Source of the DNA: an uncultured Clostridia bacterium | Lineage (GTDB): Bacteria; Bacillota_I; Bacilli_A; RF39; UBA660 | Length of the DNA: 44,113 bases | Reading direction: 5' to 3' | NCBI GenBank assembly: GCA_947165135.1 | Contig: CAMUZE010000011.1 | Location: forward strand, 1-44,113 | Part shown: piece by piece, positions 2,437 through 17,946 of the stretch | Position numbering within the stretch: position 1 is the first letter of the stretch | How the letters are laid out: every line of letters begins with the position of its first letter | Notes under the pieces: generated by a model | Seen by the model: the letters and a program-made list of their open reading frames with translations, nothing else | What the model was told of the DNA's origin: nothing | Databases searched by the model: none | Translations under genes and position numbers: made by a program

Positions 2437-5076
2437 ATGGAATCAACAAACTTTAGTATTGATTTTAAAAATATTAGAACATATAAAAATAAATATAAAG
2501 TAATTAATATTTTCAAAAGAATGACTGATAAAGATATAAATTTATTAATTGATTCTAATGTTGTTGAAGTTATATCAACTCTTAACGAAGGTACTATAAA
2601 CTCTATTTTTAGAAATTCAGGTTCTTCCTTACAAAACAAACTATGGAATAATGATATAATTCAAAGAGTTTTAATATTTGGTAAAAAAGATATTACAAAT
2701 TTACATTATGATGAACAACTTATAAGGAATCTTGAAAATTTAAATAAGATTATTAAATTACAATCAATAAAAAAGCAAGTGTACACTAATAAATATTTTA
2801 TTGCAGTACTAACATCAGATATTGAAATAGAAACAAGATTCTTCCATTCTTATGACATTAATAAAGTATTTGAAAGTATAGTTTATAGTGACCAATTTAA
2901 GTCATTACCAAGTGATAAACAATTAAGAATAATTGAAAAGTTAAATAGTTATACAAATGACATTTTACTTCCTATTGATTTTAGACAAAGATATAAAAAT
3001 ATTGAAAGAATATTATTTTCTATAGATATAAGTAAGCTTGATGAAAATATAATTTCACAACTTAATGATGATGAATTATTTTTTATAGATTATATTAGAA
3101 ATGATAAAAATAATAATCAAGCAATTAAAAAATATATAATTGAAAATATTAAATCAAAAGGAAAATCATTTGAACAATTCATGGATGAAATGAAAACAAG
3201 AGATAATCTTATAAATAGACGAATACGTGATGTTTACAGAAGAAAATATTACTATAGTTCAGTTGATTTAAAGCAAAAAGTATTTGAAATACTTTTACAT
3301 GAAATAGATGATGAATTAATAAGAGAAAAAATGTTAAGATATTTGCTACCTATTATAATGAAAGATAGTTTGGTAAATTCAGAAGCAATGTACAATACTT
3401 TAAAAAGAAATTTAAATTATAATTTATTAACATATACAGATATTAATAACCTAACAAGTCATTATGATCATTTAAACAAAGACTTAAGGTTAATGTTTTA
3501 CTTAAAGTTTAATATTTCTCTAGCAAGTGCTAGATATTTAAATGGTATAACTTTTGACCAATTATCTAAAATAAATGTAAAACATATTAATAAATTATTT
3601 AAATTTTTAGAAGATAAAACTCAAGATGAGTTGTCTTCAATATATGGAATATGTATAAAACTATATTTTATATTTGGTTATGAAAGAAGTATTGAAATAT
3701 TAAGTGGTAGATACGGAGAGTACGATAGAAGATTTTTAGATAATGTTGCTAAAACTGATGTAAGTAAAGTATTAATGGTTGAAGAAGGTAATAAATACTT
3801 ACCATCAATAGATCGAAGATTTATTAATTTTATGTTTGAAACTCCAAAAAACAATCACTTTATTGATATGCTAAATAATAAGAATTCAGAATTATATAAA
3901 AGATGGTATTATGTTTATAACAACTATGATGAGATACTTGAAAAATGCCATAATGAAATTACAATGAAAAAGATTGTTTCAATACTAGAAACTGAAAAAT
4001 ATGATATAAATAGAAAAATAATAACACCTGACTGTTATTTATTAAACAATAATGATTTTTTAGAAAACATTGTTTTAGGCAATAAAACCAGACACAGCAA
4101 TGATGATGTTTTAAAAAGTATAGTTGAAATATATAGGAAGATGAAAAGAAGAGTTGAATCTAGTATTCCATACGTAGAAGGCACATCAGTAGATGGATAC
4201 AAATTTCAAACATTAAAATTTGATGATTATAAAATATTTGAATTGGGATATAAAGCTAATTGTTGTATTAGAACATTAGATATTGCTCATAAGCATTTAT
4301 TACATGCTGCTTTATGTAGAAATGGAAGAATACTACTAATATATGATAAATTAGGTGATTTGGCGGCTTTTTGTCCTATTAAAAGAAATGGTAATGTTTT
4401 AATTGTTAATAGTATTGAATGTGTAGATAAAAGATTTGACAAAACAGGAGATTATATAAAAACTGCATTTAGCCAATGTATTCAAGAAATTGTAAATACA
4501 AGTATGTCAAGCAATGAACCGATAGAATTAGTATGCATTGGAAGAAATTCTTATTTAAAACCAAATGTTGTACAATTCCCATCAAATGTTGAAACACCAA
4601 CTATTTATGAAAAAGATGATGATACATATAAAAATACTGATATTTATCATACATCTTTAGACATAGTTTATAAAGCTGATAATTTTAATTTCGAAAGTAT
4701 TAAAAAAGGTAATCCCAATGTTTCTTATAATGATCCTAGACCATCAATTACTTCCTGTGATTTTCGACAATCATCTAAAGAAGAACAAGAAAAAGCATTA
4801 AATGTTATCAATGCTATTAGATACTCTAGTTCTGAATTAGAAGAATTAGAAAATTTTAGATTATGTGAAAGATATGGAATACAATGTTGCATATATAATA
4901 AAGATTGGTATATTTTAAAAGCGTTTGATGGTAATATTTATGGCGATTGTTTAAAAGATGATAAAAGAGCTATTACTGAATATAATATTGCTTTACAAGA
5001 ATTTCAAAATAGGTTTTATTCAGAACAACAAAATGATGAAGTAAAGCTTGTTAAAAAATTTAAACTTCCAAGATGA
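2437..5076 (+). CDS. Large hypothetical protein with a PcfJ-like region, 879 aa
   Basis: Start ATG 2437 has a strong site (AAAGGGGG). Residues 1-580 are helix-rich, charged and of unknown fold. A more conserved-looking region at about 588-670 contains a C-C-I-R motif (YKANCCIRTLD), a histidine-rich helix (AHKHLLHAALCRNGRILLIYD) and beta strands. That pattern reminds me of the catalytic-looking core of PcfJ-like proteins found on mobile elements, but I hold the match with low confidence. No signal peptide or membrane segment is present. The gene stands alone between a structured gap and two tRNA-Gly-related sites, which suits accessory or mobile DNA. No function is claimed. Confidence 0.75.
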   Translation: MESTNFSIDFKNIRTYKNKYKVINIFKRMTDKDINLLIDSNVVEVISTLNEGTINSIFRNSGSSLQNKLWNNDIIQRVLIFGKKDITNLHYDEQLIRNLENLNKIIKLQSIKKQVYTNKYFIAVLTSDIEIETRFFHSYDINKVFESIVYSDQFKSLPSDKQLRIIEKLNSYTNDILLPIDFRQRYKNIERILFSIDISKLDENIISQLNDDELFFIDYIRNDKNNNQAIKKYIIENIKSKGKSFEQFMDEMKTRDNLINRRIRDVYRRKYYYSSVDLKQKVFEILLHEIDDELIREKMLRYLLPIIMKDSLVNSEAMYNTLKRNLNYNLLTYTDINNLTSHYDHLNKDLRLMFYLKFNISLASARYLNGITFDQLSKINVKHINKLFKFLEDKTQDELSSIYGICIKLYFIFGYERSIEILSGRYGEYDRRFLDNVAKTDVSKVLMVEEGNKYLPSIDRRFINFMFETPKNNHFIDMLNNKNSELYKRWYYVYNNYDEILEKCHNEITMKKIVSILETEKYDINRKIITPDCYLLNNNDFLENIVLGNKTRHSNDDVLKSIVEIYRKMKRRVESSIPYVEGTSVDGYKFQTLKFDDYKIFELGYKANCCIRTLDIAHKHLLHAALCRNGRILLIYDKLGDLAAFCPIKRNGNVLIVNSIECVDKRFDKTGDYIKTAFSQCIQEIVNTSMSSNEPIELVCIGRNSYLKPNVVQFPSNVETPTIYEKDDDTYKNTDIYHTSLDIVYKADNFNFESIKKGNPNVSYNDPRPSITSCDFRQSSKEEQEKALNVINAIRYSSSELEELENFRLCERYGIQCCIYNKDWYILKAFDGNIYGDCLKDDKRAITEYNIALQEFQNRFYSEQQNDEVKLVKKFKLPR

Positions 5077-10527: not shown

Positions 10528-12318
10528 ATGAGCGATAAAAGTAGAAAAATAGTAATTGCAATTCTTTTGGTATTAATAATTATTTGCATTTTTTGTTATT
10601 TTTATTTTAAAGGACAAAAAACTTATACAATTTCTTTCGATACTGATGGAGGAACAGCAACTTCGGCAATAAATGTAAGAAATGGGAACAAAATTGCAAA
10701 GCCAGCAGATCCCACAAAAGAAGGATATGAATTCGTAGAATGGCAACTAAATGGAAAAACATATAATTTTGATACTCCAATTGTTGGAAATGCTACATTA
10801 ACCGCAGTATGGAGAGAAGTATCAGTTGAAGAAGAGACATTTGTTGTTAGATTTGATACTGATGGAGGAAGTATATTAGTAAATCAACATGTTAAGCCAG
10901 GTGAACAAGCAACTTTACCAGAAACTCCAACTAAAGAAGGCGATGATAAGGTTAAATATACATTTGTAGAATGGCAGTCAAATGGTAAAAAATATGATTT
11001 CTCAACTCCGGTAACAAGTAATATAACATTAACAGCAAAATGGGGTGAGGAACAAATAATAGAAAAATTTACTATAACATTTGATACTGATGGAGGCTCA
11101 GCAGTGAAATCACAGACCATAGGAACTGGTAAAAAGGTTACTAAGCCAACAAATCCAACAAAGAAAGGATATGTATTCGTTGAATGGCAATTGAATGAAG
11201 AAGCATATGATTTTTCAACTCCGGTAACAAGTGATATAACATTGACAGCAAAATGGATTGATGAAGCCTCAGTAGAAAAATTCACAGTAACATTTAATAC
11301 TAATGGTGGTTCAGTGGTAAATGTACAAACAGTTATCAAGGGAGCTAAGGCTACTAAACCAGCAGATCCAACAAAAGAAGGATATGCTTTTGTAGAATGG
11401 CAATTAAATGGAAAAACTTATAATTTCAATACAGTAGTAACAAGTAATATAACATTGACAGCAAAATGGAATCAACAAAAGTACACAGTAACATTTAATT
11501 CAAATGGTGGTTCAGCAGTAAGTTCACAAACTATAAATAGTGGGGCTAAGGCTACTAAACCAACAAATCCAACAAGAGAAGGATATATATTTGTAGAATG
11601 GCAGTTAAATGGAAGTGCATTCAACTTTAATACTGCAATAACAAGTAATATAACATTAATAGCAAAATGGAACCAAAATACAACGCCAAAGTATAAAGTA
11701 ACATTTAATTCAAATGGTGGCTCAACAATTAATGCACAATTGGTAGTTAAAGGAGCAACTGCAATAAGACCAGCAGACCCAACAAGAAGTGGCTATACAT
11801 TTGTAGAATGGCAATTAAATGGAAGTGAGTTCGACTTTAATACAGTAATAACAAATAATATTACACTAACAGCGAAATGGGAACAAAATGCTGTTCAAAA
11901 GTATACAGTAACATTTAATTCAAATGGAGGCTCATCAGTAAGTTCACAAACTGTAAATAGTGGAGCAAAGGCTACTAAGCCAACAAATCCAACAAAAGAA
12001 GGACATACATTTGTAGAATGGCAATTAAATGGTAGTGCATTCAACTTTAATACAGCTATAACTAGTAATATAACATTAACAGCAAAATGGAATCAAAAGA
12101 CATACACAATTAGAGCTGTTCCAAAGGATGATTTTTCACCATATTTAGATTTATATGTTTATGAAAATGGAACAAAAATATCAGTATATGCATTATATTA
12201 TGCATCTGATGGAGCTAAGTTAAATGGTTTCTCTGAAAATAAAAATACTTTAGAAAGTGCTTACTTAGTACAATTATCAAGTGGTGGTACAAAATTTAGA
12301 GCAAATGTTGTTCAATAG
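10528..12318 (+). CDS. Membrane-anchored surface protein with seven InlB B repeats, 596 aa
   Basis: An uncleaved-looking N-terminal membrane segment (residues about 9-28) is followed by seven tandem repeats of about 65-70 residues. Each has the InlB B-repeat (Listeria-Bacteroides repeat) signature: F-[DN]-[ST]-[DN]-GG, P-x-x-PT-[KR]-x-G, F-x-EW-x-x-NG and N-x-TL-x-A-x-W. Repeats 5 to 7 are the most alike, including at DNA level, which suggests recent duplication. A different domain of about 70 residues closes the protein (TYTIRAVPKDDFSPYLDLYVYENG). No LPxTG-type signal is present, so anchoring is by the N-terminal helix. Such repeats act as extracellular spacers or adhesion modules. The GH5 gene starts ten bases later. 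Confidence 0.88.
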   Translation: MSDKSRKIVIAILLVLIIICIFCYFYFKGQKTYTISFDTDGGTATSAINVRNGNKIAKPADPTKEGYEFVEWQLNGKTYNFDTPIVGNATLTAVWREVSVEEETFVVRFDTDGGSILVNQHVKPGEQATLPETPTKEGDDKVKYTFVEWQSNGKKYDFSTPVTSNITLTAKWGEEQIIEKFTITFDTDGGSAVKSQTIGTGKKVTKPTNPTKKGYVFVEWQLNEEAYDFSTPVTSDITLTAKWIDEASVEKFTVTFNTNGGSVVNVQTVIKGAKATKPADPTKEGYAFVEWQLNGKTYNFNTVVTSNITLTAKWNQQKYTVTFNSNGGSAVSSQTINSGAKATKPTNPTREGYIFVEWQLNGSAFNFNTAITSNITLIAKWNQNTTPKYKVTFNSNGGSTINAQLVVKGATAIRPADPTRSGYTFVEWQLNGSEFDFNTVITNNITLTAKWEQNAVQKYTVTFNSNGGSSVSSQTVNSGAKATKPTNPTKEGHTFVEWQLNGSAFNFNTAITSNITLTAKWNQKTYTIRAVPKDDFSPYLDLYVYENGTKISVYALYYASDGAKLNGFSENKNTLESAYLVQLSSGGTKFRANVVQ

Positions 12319-12328
12319 GAGAATTAAT

Positions 12329-15300
12329 GTGAAGAAGTTTAATTATATAGCATTTGTTTTAATATTTATAACAGCATTAATAGTAAGAATTAATGCAGCA
12401 ACAACATCATATAATGATATACCAAATAACAGTTATGTTATAGGTACTCATTTATATACAAATGAAGTACCTTTAACAATAAAACATATAATGTTAGCAT
12501 CAAATACAATAGAGGGAAATACTCTAAGCGATATGAAACTATATTATAAGACATCAAGAGGAAAATGGATAGATGGATTAACAGGTGAAGAAAAAACTCA
12601 CCTTTCTTCATATACAATAAATTATAGAAATTCAGAAACAACTAGTACATATTATGAAAATACTAATACAAATGAAATAGATAAAAATGATATACCAAAT
12701 AATAGTTATGTTATAGGTAGTCATTTATATACAAGTGAAATGCCATTAACAACAAATCATATAATGTTGGCATCGAGAACAATAAGCGAAAATAGACTAA
12801 GTTATATGAAAATTTATTACAAAACATCAAGAGGAAAATGGATAGATGGAGTAAGTGGAGAAGAGGTAACAGTATCAAATAGCATTAATATTAGTCATAT
12901 TAATTTAGAACAGGTTACAAAACAAGCGGGTTATATAACATTAAACGAAACAAAGAAAACAATAACATATGGAACGAATACAGTAACATTTAATGTAGTT
13001 AGTTCACATGGGGGAACAATAAGTGTAGTAGATAATAATAGTACTTCAACAATAACAAAAGATGGAAATACAATAACAGTAAGTAATTTAAGAACAATAG
13101 ATGCAGGAACAACAATAACAGTAACAGTAAGAAGTGCAGAAACCAATGCGTATACAGAAGCAAGCACTACATATTTAATAACAATAAATAAAGCAGATTC
13201 TATTTGTCCAACAGTAACTGAATATAGTGGAACATATGATGCAAAGGAACATACAGTAACGGTAAGTGGAGGATCAGGTGGAACAATAAAATATGAAAAG
13301 AGTACCAACGGTGGCACTACATATACAGACCAAGATACAACTAACCCAGTAAGAAAAAGCGCAGGAACAACATATATAAGAGTACGTATTGAGGGAGATA
13401 ATAATCACAATGATAAGACATGTGATACAAAAACTATAACGCTTGCAAAAAGAGAAGTAACAATAAAAGCAAGTGACCAAAGCAGGACATATGATGGAAC
13501 TGCTTTAGAAGCTGATTCAACATGTGAAATAACAAGTGGTATTGTAGTAAGTGGACACACATTATCATGTACAAATACAGGAAGCCAAACAGAGGTAGGA
13601 AGTAGTACTAAGACACTATCAACAATACAAGTAATGAGTGGAAGTTCTGATGTAAGTAGTAACTATACAATAACAAAAACAAATGGAACATTAACAGTTA
13701 ATCCAAAGAGCTTAGCAGTCTCTTGGGGAACTTTAACATGGACATATGATGGAAACGCACATTCAACAACAGCAAGTGTAACAACAGGAGTAAGTGGAGA
13801 AACAATGAGTGTTTCAATAAGTAATAATAGTATTACATATAAAGGAACACAGGCAGTAACAGCTTCATGTGGAAGTGTAAGTGGAGGACAAGCAAAGTGT
13901 GCAAACTATACACTAACAAATACAGGGAAGACATTAACAGTAAATGCAAAAGCAATAACAATAACAGCAAAAGCACAAGAAGTAACATATGGAACAGCAA
14001 TATCAAAGACAACGTCTGATGTAACAGTGGCAACATTAGGAAGTGGAGATTCATTAACGGCAATAACATTAACAGAGTCAACAAGTAATGCAACAACATC
14101 TGGAACAATAACACCAAGTGCAGCAACAATTAAAAAAGGAACAACAGATGTAACAAGTAATTATAGTATTACATATAACACGGGAGCATTAACAATAAAT
14201 GCAAAAGTATTAACAATACCAAGTAGTCCAGCAGAAAAGACATACACAGGAAGTAGTCAAGGAAGTGGAATAACATGTCCAGCTGGATCAACAGCAAGTG
14301 GAACACAAAGTGCGACAAATGCAAATGAAGGTAGTACAACATATACACAAACATGTACATTAGATTCAACAACAAATTATAAGTGGAGTGATAATACAAC
14401 AACAGCAAAGAATATAACATGGAAGATAAAACCAAAGAGTGTAAGTGTTTCATGGGGAAGCACAACAGAATTTACATATAACGGAAGTGCCCAAGCACCA
14501 ACAGCAAGTGTAACAACAGGAGTAGCTGGAGAGACAATGACAGTTACAAGGACTACACAGACTAATGCAAGTGCAAGCAATTATACATCAACAGCGAGTT
14601 GTTCAAGTGTAAGTGGAGGACAAGCAAAGTGTAGTAACTATACATTAACAGGAAATACAAAAACATATAAGATAAATGCAAAAGCAATAACAGTAAAAGC
14701 AAGTAATCAAAGTAAGACATATGATGGAAGTGCACTAAATGCAGATTCTACTTGTGAAGTAACAAGTGGAAGCTTAGTAAGTGGACACTCTTTAGAATGC
14801 ACAACAAGTGGAAGTCAAATAGATGCAGGAAGTAGTACAAAGACATTAAGTACAGTAAAAGTAATGAATGGAAGTACAGATGTAAGTACAAACTATACAA
14901 TAACAAAACAAAATGGAACATTAACAGTATTAGAAGCTGATATAAATGCATTATATATTCAATACAATGGTAATGGTGGAACATGGAATAATCCAGTTAA
15001 TGATACTTATGGAGTTAATGAGAATGGAATGGTAATAAAGAATGCTACTGGAAAAATATATGTCGATAGCCATAGTGCTAATGATCAAAGCATTAATTTA
15101 ATTGATTACAATGGTGAATATTTAAATTGGCGAAAAAGTAATGCGGGAGTTCCGCCTGAATCCGAATATTATGTATTAAATGAAAGTACAAATGTAAAAA
15201 CATACTTAAATCAAATGAATAATTATTCTGCAGTAGATATAGCTGCAGCTGCCGGATGTAATTTGTCAAATAATAGTTGTACGGTAATTGTTTATGTAAA

Positions 15301-17080
15301 CTGGGAACAATATTTAATTACTGATAATGATTTCTTAAAAACAAGTGGAACAAAATTTGTAAAAGCCGGAACTGATACAGGTATTGTACTAAGAGGATAT
15401 AATATTGGAGAGTGGTTAAGTAGAGCTATTTCACTTTCTCCAATGGAAAATGCGCATGTTGCTTTTGATACTTCAAATTTTCCAACTCCATACACGAATC
15501 TAAGTTCTGCTTATTGGAGAGAATATGCTGATAATGATATACAAATCAACTACATTCTTTATAAACGCTTTGGTAAAGACGGAGAATATAATCTTAATAA
15601 TATTTATTATAAAAACTTTATTACCGAATCTGATATAGAAAAAATGCAGGAAATAGGAATCAATGCTGTTAGAGTCCCTTTAGCATGGAGCTATTTTGTT
15701 GATATGACATATATCGAGCCAAGCGCTCCTATAACAATTACTTCATCTACTAAACCCTCAGATATGAACGCTTATAAATATTCATATACTATGTTAACTG
15801 GCGATAGATTGAATCAGAGATTAGAATATCTTGATTGGATTGTTCATGAGTGTAGAAAACGTGGTATATATGTAATATTTGATTTGCACGTTGTTGATGG
15901 TGGCCAAAGTGATTATGGTATTAGACCTGCTAGAGGATTTACTTTCTATGATGATCAAAATGCTCAAAATAATGCAATAGATATTTGGAAAATTGTTGCA
16001 AGAAGATTTAATGGCAATCCAGGTGTTGCGGGATATGAGTTATTAAATGAACCATCTTCTGGTATTGGGTCGGATGGTAACAAATATATTGATAGACCTA
16101 CAGATAGAAATATGTACAGAGATGAGTTAATAAGATTTTATGATATGACATATAAAGCGATAAGAGATATAGATCCTAATCATGTAATAATTATGGAGGC
16201 ACCATATCCTGATTCAAAATCACACCAAGTTTATATGGAAGATTCAAATGGTAATCCTTTATTAACATTACCAACAGAAAGCGAAAGAACAAATGGTATC
16301 ACAGATACATCTATATGCCCAGCTACACAGTGTAAATGGACTAATGTAGCATATTCTTTGCATGATTATTTCTTCTGGTCTAATAGTGTTAATATAATAA
16401 AAAATGATATTCAATCAAAAGTAGCAGCTGATGTTAGAGATATGAAAAAGTATAATGTTCCAATTTATATTGGAGAAACAAATTTTACTTATACAGGTGA
16501 TAATGAAGAATTAGATGAAGAAGTTATCAATAGTTCATGGAATTATGCATTAAAGCAGTATGATAATAATTTATTTAGTTATACTTTTTGGTCATATAAA
16601 GTTGCAAAATCATTTAGATTTGGAATGGTTTATAATTTAAGATGGAATTATAAAAATCAATCAATGGCTCTTCTTTTAACAGATGATTATGATACTATTG
16701 CAAACAAATGGTCAATGAATGAAACAGATGCACATTATGACTATGTTACAACATATGTTAATATTTTAAAAAATAATTTTATTAATAATTCTGATAAACC
16801 GATTATTAATAATTCAGCATATACTTGTACTTCTGGTCAAGAACTTATTTCTTCAATTAAAGTATTCTCAAGAGATGGAAGTGTTACAATTGATAATGTT
16901 AAAACTAATAATTCTAGCATTGCAGATGTTTCATTTATAGATCCAACAGGAGTAATATGTACAAGTTCATCATGTAAAACAATTAAAATTACATGTAAGA
17001 CTTCTGGAACTGTAACTTTGACGGCAACTGCGAGTAATGGTGCAACAGGAACGTCAACAATTACAGTTTCAAACAATTAG
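12329..17080 (+). CDS. Secreted multidomain protein with a GH5-family glycoside hydrolase domain, 1583 aa
   Basis: GTG 12329 is chosen because AGGAGA (12317-12322) fits it and a signal peptide follows directly (hydrophobic to about residue 19, AxA-like RINAA). Two copies of a 50-60 residue module (about 30-88 and 121-178) share YVIGxHLYT and YYKTSRGKWIDG. MBG/YDG-like beta modules follow to about 865. The catalytic domain (about 1000-1490) has RGYNIGEWL, INAVRVPLAWS, FDLH, LLNEP (acid/base E1241), LHDYFF and IGETNF (nucleophile E1383), the GH5 order. A bacterial Ig-like domain ends the chain. Length suggests a cell-surface beta-glucan or mannan hydrolase. Codon use shifts from A-ending in the modules to T-ending in the GH5 part. 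No sorting signal is seen. Confidence 0.88.
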   Translation: MKKFNYIAFVLIFITALIVRINAATTSYNDIPNNSYVIGTHLYTNEVPLTIKHIMLASNTIEGNTLSDMKLYYKTSRGKWIDGLTGEEKTHLSSYTINYRNSETTSTYYENTNTNEIDKNDIPNNSYVIGSHLYTSEMPLTTNHIMLASRTISENRLSYMKIYYKTSRGKWIDGVSGEEVTVSNSINISHINLEQVTKQAGYITLNETKKTITYGTNTVTFNVVSSHGGTISVVDNNSTSTITKDGNTITVSNLRTIDAGTTITVTVRSAETNAYTEASTTYLITINKADSICPTVTEYSGTYDAKEHTVTVSGGSGGTIKYEKSTNGGTTYTDQDTTNPVRKSAGTTYIRVRIEGDNNHNDKTCDTKTITLAKREVTIKASDQSRTYDGTALEADSTCEITSGIVVSGHTLSCTNTGSQTEVGSSTKTLSTIQVMSGSSDVSSNYTITKTNGTLTVNPKSLAVSWGTLTWTYDGNAHSTTASVTTGVSGETMSVSISNNSITYKGTQAVTASCGSVSGGQAKCANYTLTNTGKTLTVNAKAITITAKAQEVTYGTAISKTTSDVTVATLGSGDSLTAITLTESTSNATTSGTITPSAATIKKGTTDVTSNYSITYNTGALTINAKVLTIPSSPAEKTYTGSSQGSGITCPAGSTASGTQSATNANEGSTTYTQTCTLDSTTNYKWSDNTTTAKNITWKIKPKSVSVSWGSTTEFTYNGSAQAPTASVTTGVAGETMTVTRTTQTNASASNYTSTASCSSVSGGQAKCSNYTLTGNTKTYKINAKAITVKASNQSKTYDGSALNADSTCEVTSGSLVSGHSLECTTSGSQIDAGSSTKTLSTVKVMNGSTDVSTNYTITKQNGTLTVLEADINALYIQYNGNGGTWNNPVNDTYGVNENGMVIKNATGKIYVDSHSANDQSINLIDYNGEYLNWRKSNAGVPPESEYYVLNESTNVKTYLNQMNNYSAVDIAAAAGCNLSNNSCTVIVYVNWEQYLITDNDFLKTSGTKFVKAGTDTGIVLRGYNIGEWLSRAISLSPMENAHVAFDTSNFPTPYTNLSSAYWREYADNDIQINYILYKRFGKDGEYNLNNIYYKNFITESDIEKMQEIGINAVRVPLAWSYFVDMTYIEPSAPITITSSTKPSDMNAYKYSYTMLTGDRLNQRLEYLDWIVHECRKRGIYVIFDLHVVDGGQSDYGIRPARGFTFYDDQNAQNNAIDIWKIVARRFNGNPGVAGYELLNEPSSGIGSDGNKYIDRPTDRNMYRDELIRFYDMTYKAIRDIDPNHVIIMEAPYPDSKSHQVYMEDSNGNPLLTLPTESERTNGITDTSICPATQCKWTNVAYSLHDYFFWSNSVNIIKNDIQSKVAADVRDMKKYNVPIYIGETNFTYTGDNEELDEEVINSSWNYALKQYDNNLFSYTFWSYKVAKSFRFGMVYNLRWNYKNQSMALLLTDDYDTIANKWSMNETDAHYDYVTTYVNILKNNFINNSDKPIINNSAYTCTSGQELISSIKVFSRDGSVTIDNVKTNNSSIADVSFIDPTGVICTSSSCKTIKITCKTSGTVTLTATASNGATGTSTITVSNN

Positions 17081-17088
17081 TTTAATTA

Positions 17089-17120
17089 AAAATGATAGAT
17101 AATTATTTATCTATCATTTT
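17089..17120. terminator. Bidirectional terminator between the GH5 gene and tetR
   Basis: AAATGATAGATA / TATCTATCATTT stem with A/T runs on both sides; it closes the GH5 gene on the plus strand and overlaps the end of the TetR gene on the minus strand. Confidence 0.8.
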
Positions 17121-17714
17121 TTTAATTTCATTAAATAGGATTGGTTTATATTTGTCTATTGATAAAGGTATATCATTTAATATTGAATCATAACAAGTAC
17201 TACTTATTAATTCAATTATCATAAATAATGTAGCTTTTGCATTCTTAATTTTACTATTATATGATTTTAATTCTTTTTCAAGAATATCTCTAACATTTTT
17301 ATATTGTTCTTGATATTCATCTACTAATGAATCATTATAGATTCCTAAGGATAGATTTCTACCAATAAATTTTAATAATTCTTTATTTTCAATAAAAGCA
17401 TTAATTATATAATCAGCTATATCTAATATTTTTTCTTTAAAAGATTTAATTCTTTTATTATTTGAGTAAATCATTGCTTCATCAAATAATAAGTATGATC
17501 TTTCTATTATTAATTTTTCATATATATCCCATTTATCTATAAAATATAAATAAAATGTTCCTTTAGCAACTCCGGCATTATCTGTAATATCACTAATTGA
17601 TGTTTTGTGAATACCTTTTCTCATAAATAGATTATATGCAGATGCTAAAAGATTTTCTCTTTTTTCTAACTTATTTTCTTCTATTTTTGTCATTTCAGTA
17701 TCGAAATTATCCAT
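17103..17714 (-). CDS. TetR-family transcriptional repressor, 203 aa
   Basis: A typical N-terminal helix-turn-helix lies at about residues 20-65 (ENLLASAYNLFMRKGIHKTSISDITDNAGVAKGTFYLYF), followed by an all-helical ligand-binding half. ATG 17714 is preferred to the upstream in-frame ATG at 17768 because GAAAGGAAG lies just before it and because the family normally begins 15-20 residues before the HTH. The gene is divergent from the ABC-F-APH gene. A dyad TGACT-AAA-AGTCA overlaps its own -35, so autorepression is likely; control of the divergent gene is possible but not shown. The ligand is unknown. Confidence 0.9.
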   Translation of the reverse strand: MDNFDTEMTKIEENKLEKRENLLASAYNLFMRKGIHKTSISDITDNAGVAKGTFYLYFIDKWDIYEKLIIERSYLLFDEAMIYSNNKRIKSFKEKILDIADYIINAFIENKELLKFIGRNLSLGIYNDSLVDEYQEQYKNVRDILEKELKSYNSKIKNAKATLFMIIELISSTCYDSILNDIPLSIDKYKPILFNEIKKMIDK

Positions 17715-17739: not shown

Positions 17740-17768
17740 ATAATAATACTTTTATGACTAAAAGTCAA
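17740..17768 (-). promoter_or_regulatory. tetR promoter with TetR-type operator
   Basis: On the minus strand TTGACT (17763-17768), a 17-base spacer and TATTAT (17740-17745). The dyad TGACT-AAA-AGTCA (17755-17767) overlaps the -35, the standard place for an autoregulatory TetR operator. Confidence 0.65.
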
Positions 17769-17801
17769 ATAAAATGGCTTTATTATTATAAATAATTGTG
17801 C

Positions 17802-17807
17802 TATAAT
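17802..17807 (+). promoter_or_regulatory. Promoter of the ABC-F-APH leader
   Basis: Perfect TATAAT preceded by TG at the extended -10 position (TGCTATAAT, 17799-17807). The -35 region is poor. The predicted start at about 17814 leaves only a few bases before the leader ribosome site AAAGG. Confidence 0.65.
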
Positions 17808-17827
17808 CTATGGCGAAAGGTGATATT

Positions 17828-17884
17828 ATGTGTGTATATAAGCAAACCGTATTAATTTATACAAGTAATATCACACTTCGTTAG
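17828..17884 (+). CDS. Leader peptide controlling the ABC-F-APH gene, 18 aa
   Basis: Translated short ORF MCVYKQTVLIYTSNITLR with an AAAGG site at 17816-17820. Its role is read from position, not from the peptide: its 3' end lies inside the 5' arm of an intrinsic terminator that precedes the ABC-F-APH gene. The RNA around its own ribosome site and start (GTGATATTA, 17820-17828) is exactly complementary to 17866-17874 (TAATATCAC), which includes the terminator 5' arm. Stalling of the ribosome on this ORF would decide which hairpin forms, as in known antibiotic-inducible leader ORFs of the erm, cat and vmlR type. Confidence 0.7.
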   Translation: MCVYKQTVLIYTSNITLR

Positions 17885-17916
17885 TTCCTTTAAGAAATAA
17901 CAAGTGTGTTTTTTTT
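17866..17916 (+). promoter_or_regulatory. Attenuator of the ABC-F-APH gene
   Basis: Terminator stem CACACTT (17872-17878) / AAGTGTG (17902-17908), extended by TTA/TAA beyond an internal loop, followed by eight T (17909-17916). The alternative pairing 17820-17828 with 17866-17874 takes up part of the 5' arm, so the two structures exclude each other. The coding ATG lies 31 bases after the T run, behind AAAGGAG. Confidence 0.75.
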
Positions 17917-17946
17917 GACGTGCAATAAAATTAAAGGAGAATTATT

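Follow-up and report, generated by a model that had tools for sequence, protein, structure and literature searches.

A putative two-lock, ribosome-controlled attenuator upstream of an ABC-F-APH fusion gene in gut and rumen Bacilli

The window (the whole 44,113-nucleotide stretch of DNA analysed here) carries a putative antibiotic-resistance gene, the product of which joins an ABC-F ATPase to an APH(3')-like phosphotransferase domain, and we consider it likely that this gene is governed by a ribosome-controlled attenuator with two locks. The parts of this device, namely a leader open reading frame (ORF), a hairpin (H1), an intrinsic terminator hairpin (T), and a complementarity between the loop of T and the Shine-Dalgarno sequence (SD) of the main gene, are evident from sequence and conservation, whereas we infer how they act. 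At the transcription lock, a ribosome in the first part of the nascent leader, or one clearing the leader fast, would hold H1 open, T would form, and transcription would stop at the U-tract. A ribosome pausing past Tyr11 would instead cover the 5' arm of T and transcription would go on; if initiation were absent, H1 would form first and likewise block T. At the translation lock, the loop of T would pair with the main SD in the read-through RNA, and a ribosome on the last leader codons would cover the loop and free the SD. It follows from the two locks together that full expression would need a ribosome lingering in the second half of the leader. We infer drug sensing by the attenuator, the likeliest trigger being an antibiotic that would arrest the ribosome after the conserved VIIYT, whether by acting in the exit tunnel or by slowing elongation or termination.

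The promoter, AAAGG, 18-codon ORF, and terminator with eight T named in the original prediction all lie at the bases given for them (Table 1). Transcription is expected to start at about 17813-17815, and in six homologues a spacing of 18-20 nt, the same as in the window, separates TATAAT from the leader ATG. An upstream ATG at 17810 (a 24-codon frame that joins the leader) was rejected as the leader start, as it lies 5' of the expected transcription start. The exact complementarity of GTGATATTA (17820-17828) to TAATATCAC (17866-17874) is present in the sequence, as is the overlap with the 5' arm of the terminator (17872-17878), so that H1 and T share bases and are mutually exclusive. This pairing is real but had been understated, since it belongs to a longer hairpin with a predicted energy of about -19 to -21 kcal/mol. 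The terminator had been understated as well: in addition to its outer arms (5' CACACTT, 17872-17878; 3' AAGTGTG, 17902-17908) it has a previously missed inner stem (GTTA/TAAC and TTC/GAA), for a total of 14 bp and -11.9 kcal/mol by folding. A simple terminator scan did not detect the T hairpin, because the scan permits no bulges or long loops.

Table 1. Features of the leader region and its surroundings in the window
Feature	Position	Strand	Basis or remark
Divergent TetR-family regulator	17103-17714	-	candidate extra control layer, outside the attenuator
Palindrome TGACTAAAAGTCA	17755-17767		lies upstream of the ABC-F promoter; probably the operator of the TetR gene
Extended -10 promoter element TGCTATAAT	17799-17807	+	sequence
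Hairpin H1	17813-17881	+	17820-17829 paired to 17865-17874, with further stems outside and inside
Leader-ORF SD, AAAGG	17816-17820	+	sequence
Leader ORF MCVYKQTVLIYTSNITLR plus TAG, 18 codons	17828-17884	+	same ORF in 10 genus genomes
Conserved codons V8 L9 I10 Y11 T12	17849-17863	+	consensus VIIYT; Tyr11 = 17858-17860
Intrinsic terminator hairpin T (CACACTT/AAGTGTG plus inner stem)	17872-17908	+	kept in all nine distinct fused-type leaders
Terminator-loop sequence TTCCTTTAA, complement of main-gene SD	17885-17893	+	9/9 fused-type leaders
Terminator U-tract, eight T	17909-17916	+	sequence; 6-8 T in homologues
TTAAAGGAG, ABC-F-APH gene SD and flank	17931-17939	+	sequence
ABC-F ATPase with C-terminal APH(3')-like phosphotransferase domain, 791 aa	17947-20322	+	NCBIfam ribo_prot_ABC_F, APH PF01636

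A key result of the comparative analysis is that 10 genomes of the genus have the leader, H1, and terminator together in front of the orthologous gene. The fused ABC-F-APH gene was found in 14 of 18 genus genomes, and the leader pattern in 10 of the 18, each time as a single match directly upstream of this gene; a reversed control of the pattern gave no match among the same 18. Lack of conservation in relatives, which the original prediction had named as grounds against itself, was looked for and does not hold. The peptides in the genus include MCIYKDTVIIYTNSITLC, MCIYKQTVIIYTNDITLC, MCIYCKTVIIYTNGITLC, MCIYKQTVIIYTSNITLA, MCIYVKTVIIYTGNITLC, and MCIYVKRVIIYTNNITLA, together with a divergent form, MKYIGTKIMYSSDITLQLFLAE. 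A short ORF with its own SD thus precedes the ABC-F gene and is conserved as coding, its core TVIIYT being preserved despite synonymous codon changes. Synonymous codon differences number 41 in the ORF frame versus 20 and 15 in the other two frames, and codon 14 is only N, S, D, or G, purine changes that retain pairing with UU of H1. Because of this frame excess and of the pairing-neutral variation at codon 14, the peptide as well as the RNA appears constrained.

The evidence from folding alone is modest, with z = -2.7 for the leader against shuffles and 1 of 200 shuffles equally good. In predicted folds, H1 sequesters the leader-ORF start and competes with T, and the arms of H1 covary across 20 leaders: pairing with their own partner gives -10.0 kcal/mol, versus -6.8 kcal/mol with the partner from another leader, and none of 20,000 permutations was as good. 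Chance hairpins were ruled out by the conservation of leader, H1, and terminator across the genus. One subclade includes four genus genomes in which the gene lacks the leader, and the leader is, judged from this distribution, dispensable. The leaderless loci L058, L060, and L063 have the same upstream gene as the leader-bearing loci L034 and L036, so the leader was lost (or replaced) at the same locus. Searches of Rfam with the window leader and with the homologous loci gave, tRNA aside, no match at the gathering score, and at a permissive threshold returned only unrelated matches far under gathering scores; plasmid sequences held no DNA match to the leader.

How the folds would respond to translation was modelled by masking the ribosome footprint codon by codon and computing equilibrium folds, without kinetics, pausing, or protein factors. 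In the ribosome-free window, H1 blocks the terminator (P(T) 0.05). With the P-site at codons 1-5 the mask model opens H1 and the terminator forms (P(T) about 1); at codons 6-8 H1 blocks the terminator in part or in full, at codons 9-10 the terminator forms, and from Tyr11 onward the full-length terminator cannot form. This switch falls at Tyr in all nine fused-type leaders, including L035, in which Tyr is codon 10, and assumed footprint edges from +11 to +17 move it by one or two codons around Tyr11. An intrinsic terminator conserved in homologues stands between the upstream ORF (uORF) and the gene, together with an exclusive structure that is predicted by computation to respond to ribosome position. 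The strength of H1 would make read-through the default in ribosome-free folds, and the device would be leaky unless early ribosome loading or the SD lock holds.

Since a ribosome at codons 1-5 opens H1 in the mask model and lets the terminator form, stalls at or near the start codon should enforce termination and not induce. Stalling at or near the start codon is the usual mode of cplR- and tiaA-type uORFs (PMC10201436, PMC12421871). Of the proposal that the fusion gene is induced by ribosome-targeting antibiotics, we therefore support the attenuator but not induction by such drugs in general.

The original prediction was also sound in placing a terminator under the control of a leader ORF before the ABC-F-APH gene, but it missed the pairing of the terminator loop with the main SD, which is probably a translational lock. 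In the predicted fold of the read-through RNA these two segments pair, and without a ribosome the main SD is predicted to be 73-98% paired. The pairing occurs in 9/9 fused-type leaders, was equalled by 0-34 of 1000 shuffled loops, and is retained in L035 using different sequence. In most homologues, the mask model frees the main SD once the P-site is at about Tyr+5 or +6 onward.

Related, longer leaders were detected elsewhere in the order. The DNA pattern AGGTRTGAN{4,10}TCRTGCCTRCATC matched in 17 of 385 genomes, always directly upstream of an ABC-F start (17/17), and its reversed form matched in none of the 385. Four IMG/VR matches to the same pattern, without leader, SD, or ABC-F, were set aside as chance. 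The longer leaders precede unfused ABC-F genes of the same family (L016, L019, L021, L023, L025-L028, L084-L086, L092, L093, L095, L096, and L103) and encode peptides such as MLNYFERTIMYVLA, MYTINHVIMYIYDNHACNY, MYINKVIGYTK, and MKNYVGKKIMYTTDITLAS. All leaders, fused-type and longer, have the motif [IV][MIG][YF] in common, and across 25 leaders the aromatic codon lies 12-15 nt before the terminator 5' arm (13.4 nt, sd 0.9 nt), as against 9-39 nt from the stop codon (sd 7.5 nt). A tree of the ABC-F genes unites all those with a leader, fused as well as unfused, in a single group without strong support (SH-aLRT 83), and leader presence requires three changes of state on it. In three of the unfused loci (L085, L095, and L096) the main-gene SD region, GGAGTGATTACT, is nearly identical to the SD region of the leader itself, so the 3' arm of H1 could hide either start. 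A different leader ORF, with a conserved DVLR[TA]xxMD end (for example, MVLEKQGRFYFRVGSDVLRTNLMDAE), was seen in the clostridial ABC-F relatives L039, L041, L044, and L046, some 190 nt ahead of the ABC-F start (locus position 3001); its GTGCTCCGTAC codons are able to pair with a downstream GTACGGAGC, and it looks like another attenuator absent from Rfam.

The longer leaders resemble that of the window in motif, Tyr-to-arm spacing, and H1, and differ in having five pairing segments (A:B, B:C, C:D, D:E) and a separate terminator. In the fused type H1 and A:B remain, A:B having there a longer U-tract as well as a loop complementary to the SD, and the window terminator is the counterpart of A:B. 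In the longer relatives A:B excludes B:C and thereby favours the antiterminator C:D, although the equilibrium coupling is clear in only about 4/11; there, A:B appears to be the ON form and not a terminator. Compared with these relatives, either the arrest would have shifted downstream by at least one codon or the sign of regulation would have changed. Tentatively, and with rather less confidence than we place in the attenuator as such, the window may hold a streamlined five-segment attenuator, in which the ON-making helix became a terminator through a longer U-tract and the loss of downstream helices, and gained an SD-hiding loop. The same stall motif at the same distance would then serve the opposite RNA logic, and expression would need a ribosome at the leader end for both transcription and translation.

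Other explanations of the same parts have to be weighed. Perhaps the peptide is incidental and the leader reports on initiation, the H1 antiterminator forming only if few ribosomes initiate on the leader (as in starvation, or with initiation inhibitors or damaged ribosomes), while active leader translation opens H1 and brings termination. H1 does hide the leader start, precedes T in transcription, and out-competes T in the window, and its pairing is conserved with compensatory changes. We nevertheless regard this account as unlikely, for synonymous changes leave the peptide core intact, Tyr keeps a set distance from the terminator arm, and a read-through RNA whose main SD is sequestered in the H1 form would be poorly translated. 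Somewhat less probable again is that a ribosome arrested with its P-site no further than codon 10 holds H1 open and favours T, such that a stall represses the gene and its release or absence allows expression. Repression of a resistance-type gene by a drug stall would make little biological sense, an arrest shifted by one or two codons restores induction in the mask model, and the loop-SD lock of the fused type would serve no purpose if a stall merely terminated. What speaks for such an inversion is that the same geometry yields the antiterminator-favouring A:B in the longer relatives, and that the fused type has lost the downstream helices, whereupon an unchanged stall codon would flip the sign.

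Control may also be sought at the promoter. A TGAC(C/T)AAAAGTCA palindrome and a divergent tetR homologue co-occur in exactly four fused loci among the loci examined (the window, L040, L065, and L066) and nowhere else, and they form a clean candidate for a repressor-operator pair. That this pair is the main control, with the leader minor or decayed, is nonetheless highly improbable: among the nine distinct loci with the leader, five (L034, L035, L036, L037, and L061) have it intact and show no tetR match in the flank examined, and the palindrome lies upstream of the expected ABC-F -35 region, overlapping the tetR promoter.

The proposed ribosome-controlled attenuator would be a new variant of the leader attenuators of ARE-ABCF genes (vmlR, cplR, and msrD). 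In the msrD leader MsrDL (MYLIFM), induction comes about when the ribosome stalls and covers the terminator's 5' half (Nat Commun 2023, PMC10314930); the window likewise has a leader ORF before an ABC-F gene, in a layout that would let a stalled ribosome cover the 5' half of an intrinsic terminator. A hydrophobic-hydrophobic-aromatic run is also common to both, L3 I4 F5 in MsrDL (L3 and I4 essential; PMC10314930) and L9 I10 Y11 in the window, LIYT resembling LIFM without homology. The window leader has 18 codons, however, versus six in MsrDL, and we found no description for msrD of a start-hiding antiterminator hairpin or a loop-SD lock. It is not of the MsrDL type, defined by MYLIFM and arrest at the stop codon by cladinose macrolides, as peptide length and sequence differ and only the geometry is alike.

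With vmlR (uORF MIN; NAR 2022, PMC9226507) the window shares a uORF within the first hairpin, exclusive hairpins, an intrinsic terminator, and an SD-sequestering hairpin. The first hairpin of vmlR is an anti-antiterminator, so that a stall on its 3-codon uORF induces (PMC9226507), whereas H1 of the window itself excludes the terminator in the folds; the longer relatives fit the vmlR type better. With cplR (uORF MR[I/M]; NAR 2023, PMC10201436) it has in common an ABC-F gene, attenuation of both transcription and translation, and a terminator stem-loop that sequesters the main SD, but the three-codon cplR uORF, unlike the window leader, is without a long conserved peptide (PMC10201436). Nor is the window of the purely translational erm/cat type: its main SD is sequestered, but a U8 terminator is present.

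The fused protein scores 440 bits against NCBIfam ribo_prot_ABC_F (cut-off 380), yet in comparisons with solved structures its sequence is at least as close to EttA-type chains, and its NCBIfam CplR score of 321.6 is under the cut-off of 780. Structures of APH(3') match residues 550-788, and the translated kinase domain retains the HGDxxxxN and DxG...D motifs. We found no mention of an ABC-F/APH fusion in the open-access papers searched, which is not proof of absence, and no plasmid record covering 80% of the fused protein. Fusions also occur, without the leader, in a sister clade (L010, L011, L012, and L069; 48-51% identity), and as they are interspersed with unfused ABC-F genes, the APH domain was lost or gained several times. 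The source genome (1.24 Mb) holds another ABC-F-like gene (a 35% identity match), and a near-identical locus, L033, comes from a Bacilli bacterium from goat omasum. Elsewhere in the window, 10528-17080 encodes two large surface-type proteins, one of 596 aa with Listeria-Bacteroides repeats and one of 1599 aa with repeats and a segment resembling a glycosyl hydrolase.

The leaders described here represent a new family, absent from Rfam, before an ABC-F clade in hardly studied small-genome Bacilli of the gut and rumen. The uORFs described for VmlR, VmlR2, LsaA, and CplR are of 3-4 codons. The leaders of the new family, unlike these, have a conserved internal motif at a fixed spacing to the terminator, and this points to an arrest specific to the nascent chain, which would offer a direct route to the inducing drug. 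Fused and unfused forms, side by side, provide a test of whether an attenuator keeps or reverses its sign upon the loss of helices. The gene itself combines, in one protein, a ribosome-protection-type ATPase and an aminoglycoside-type kinase.
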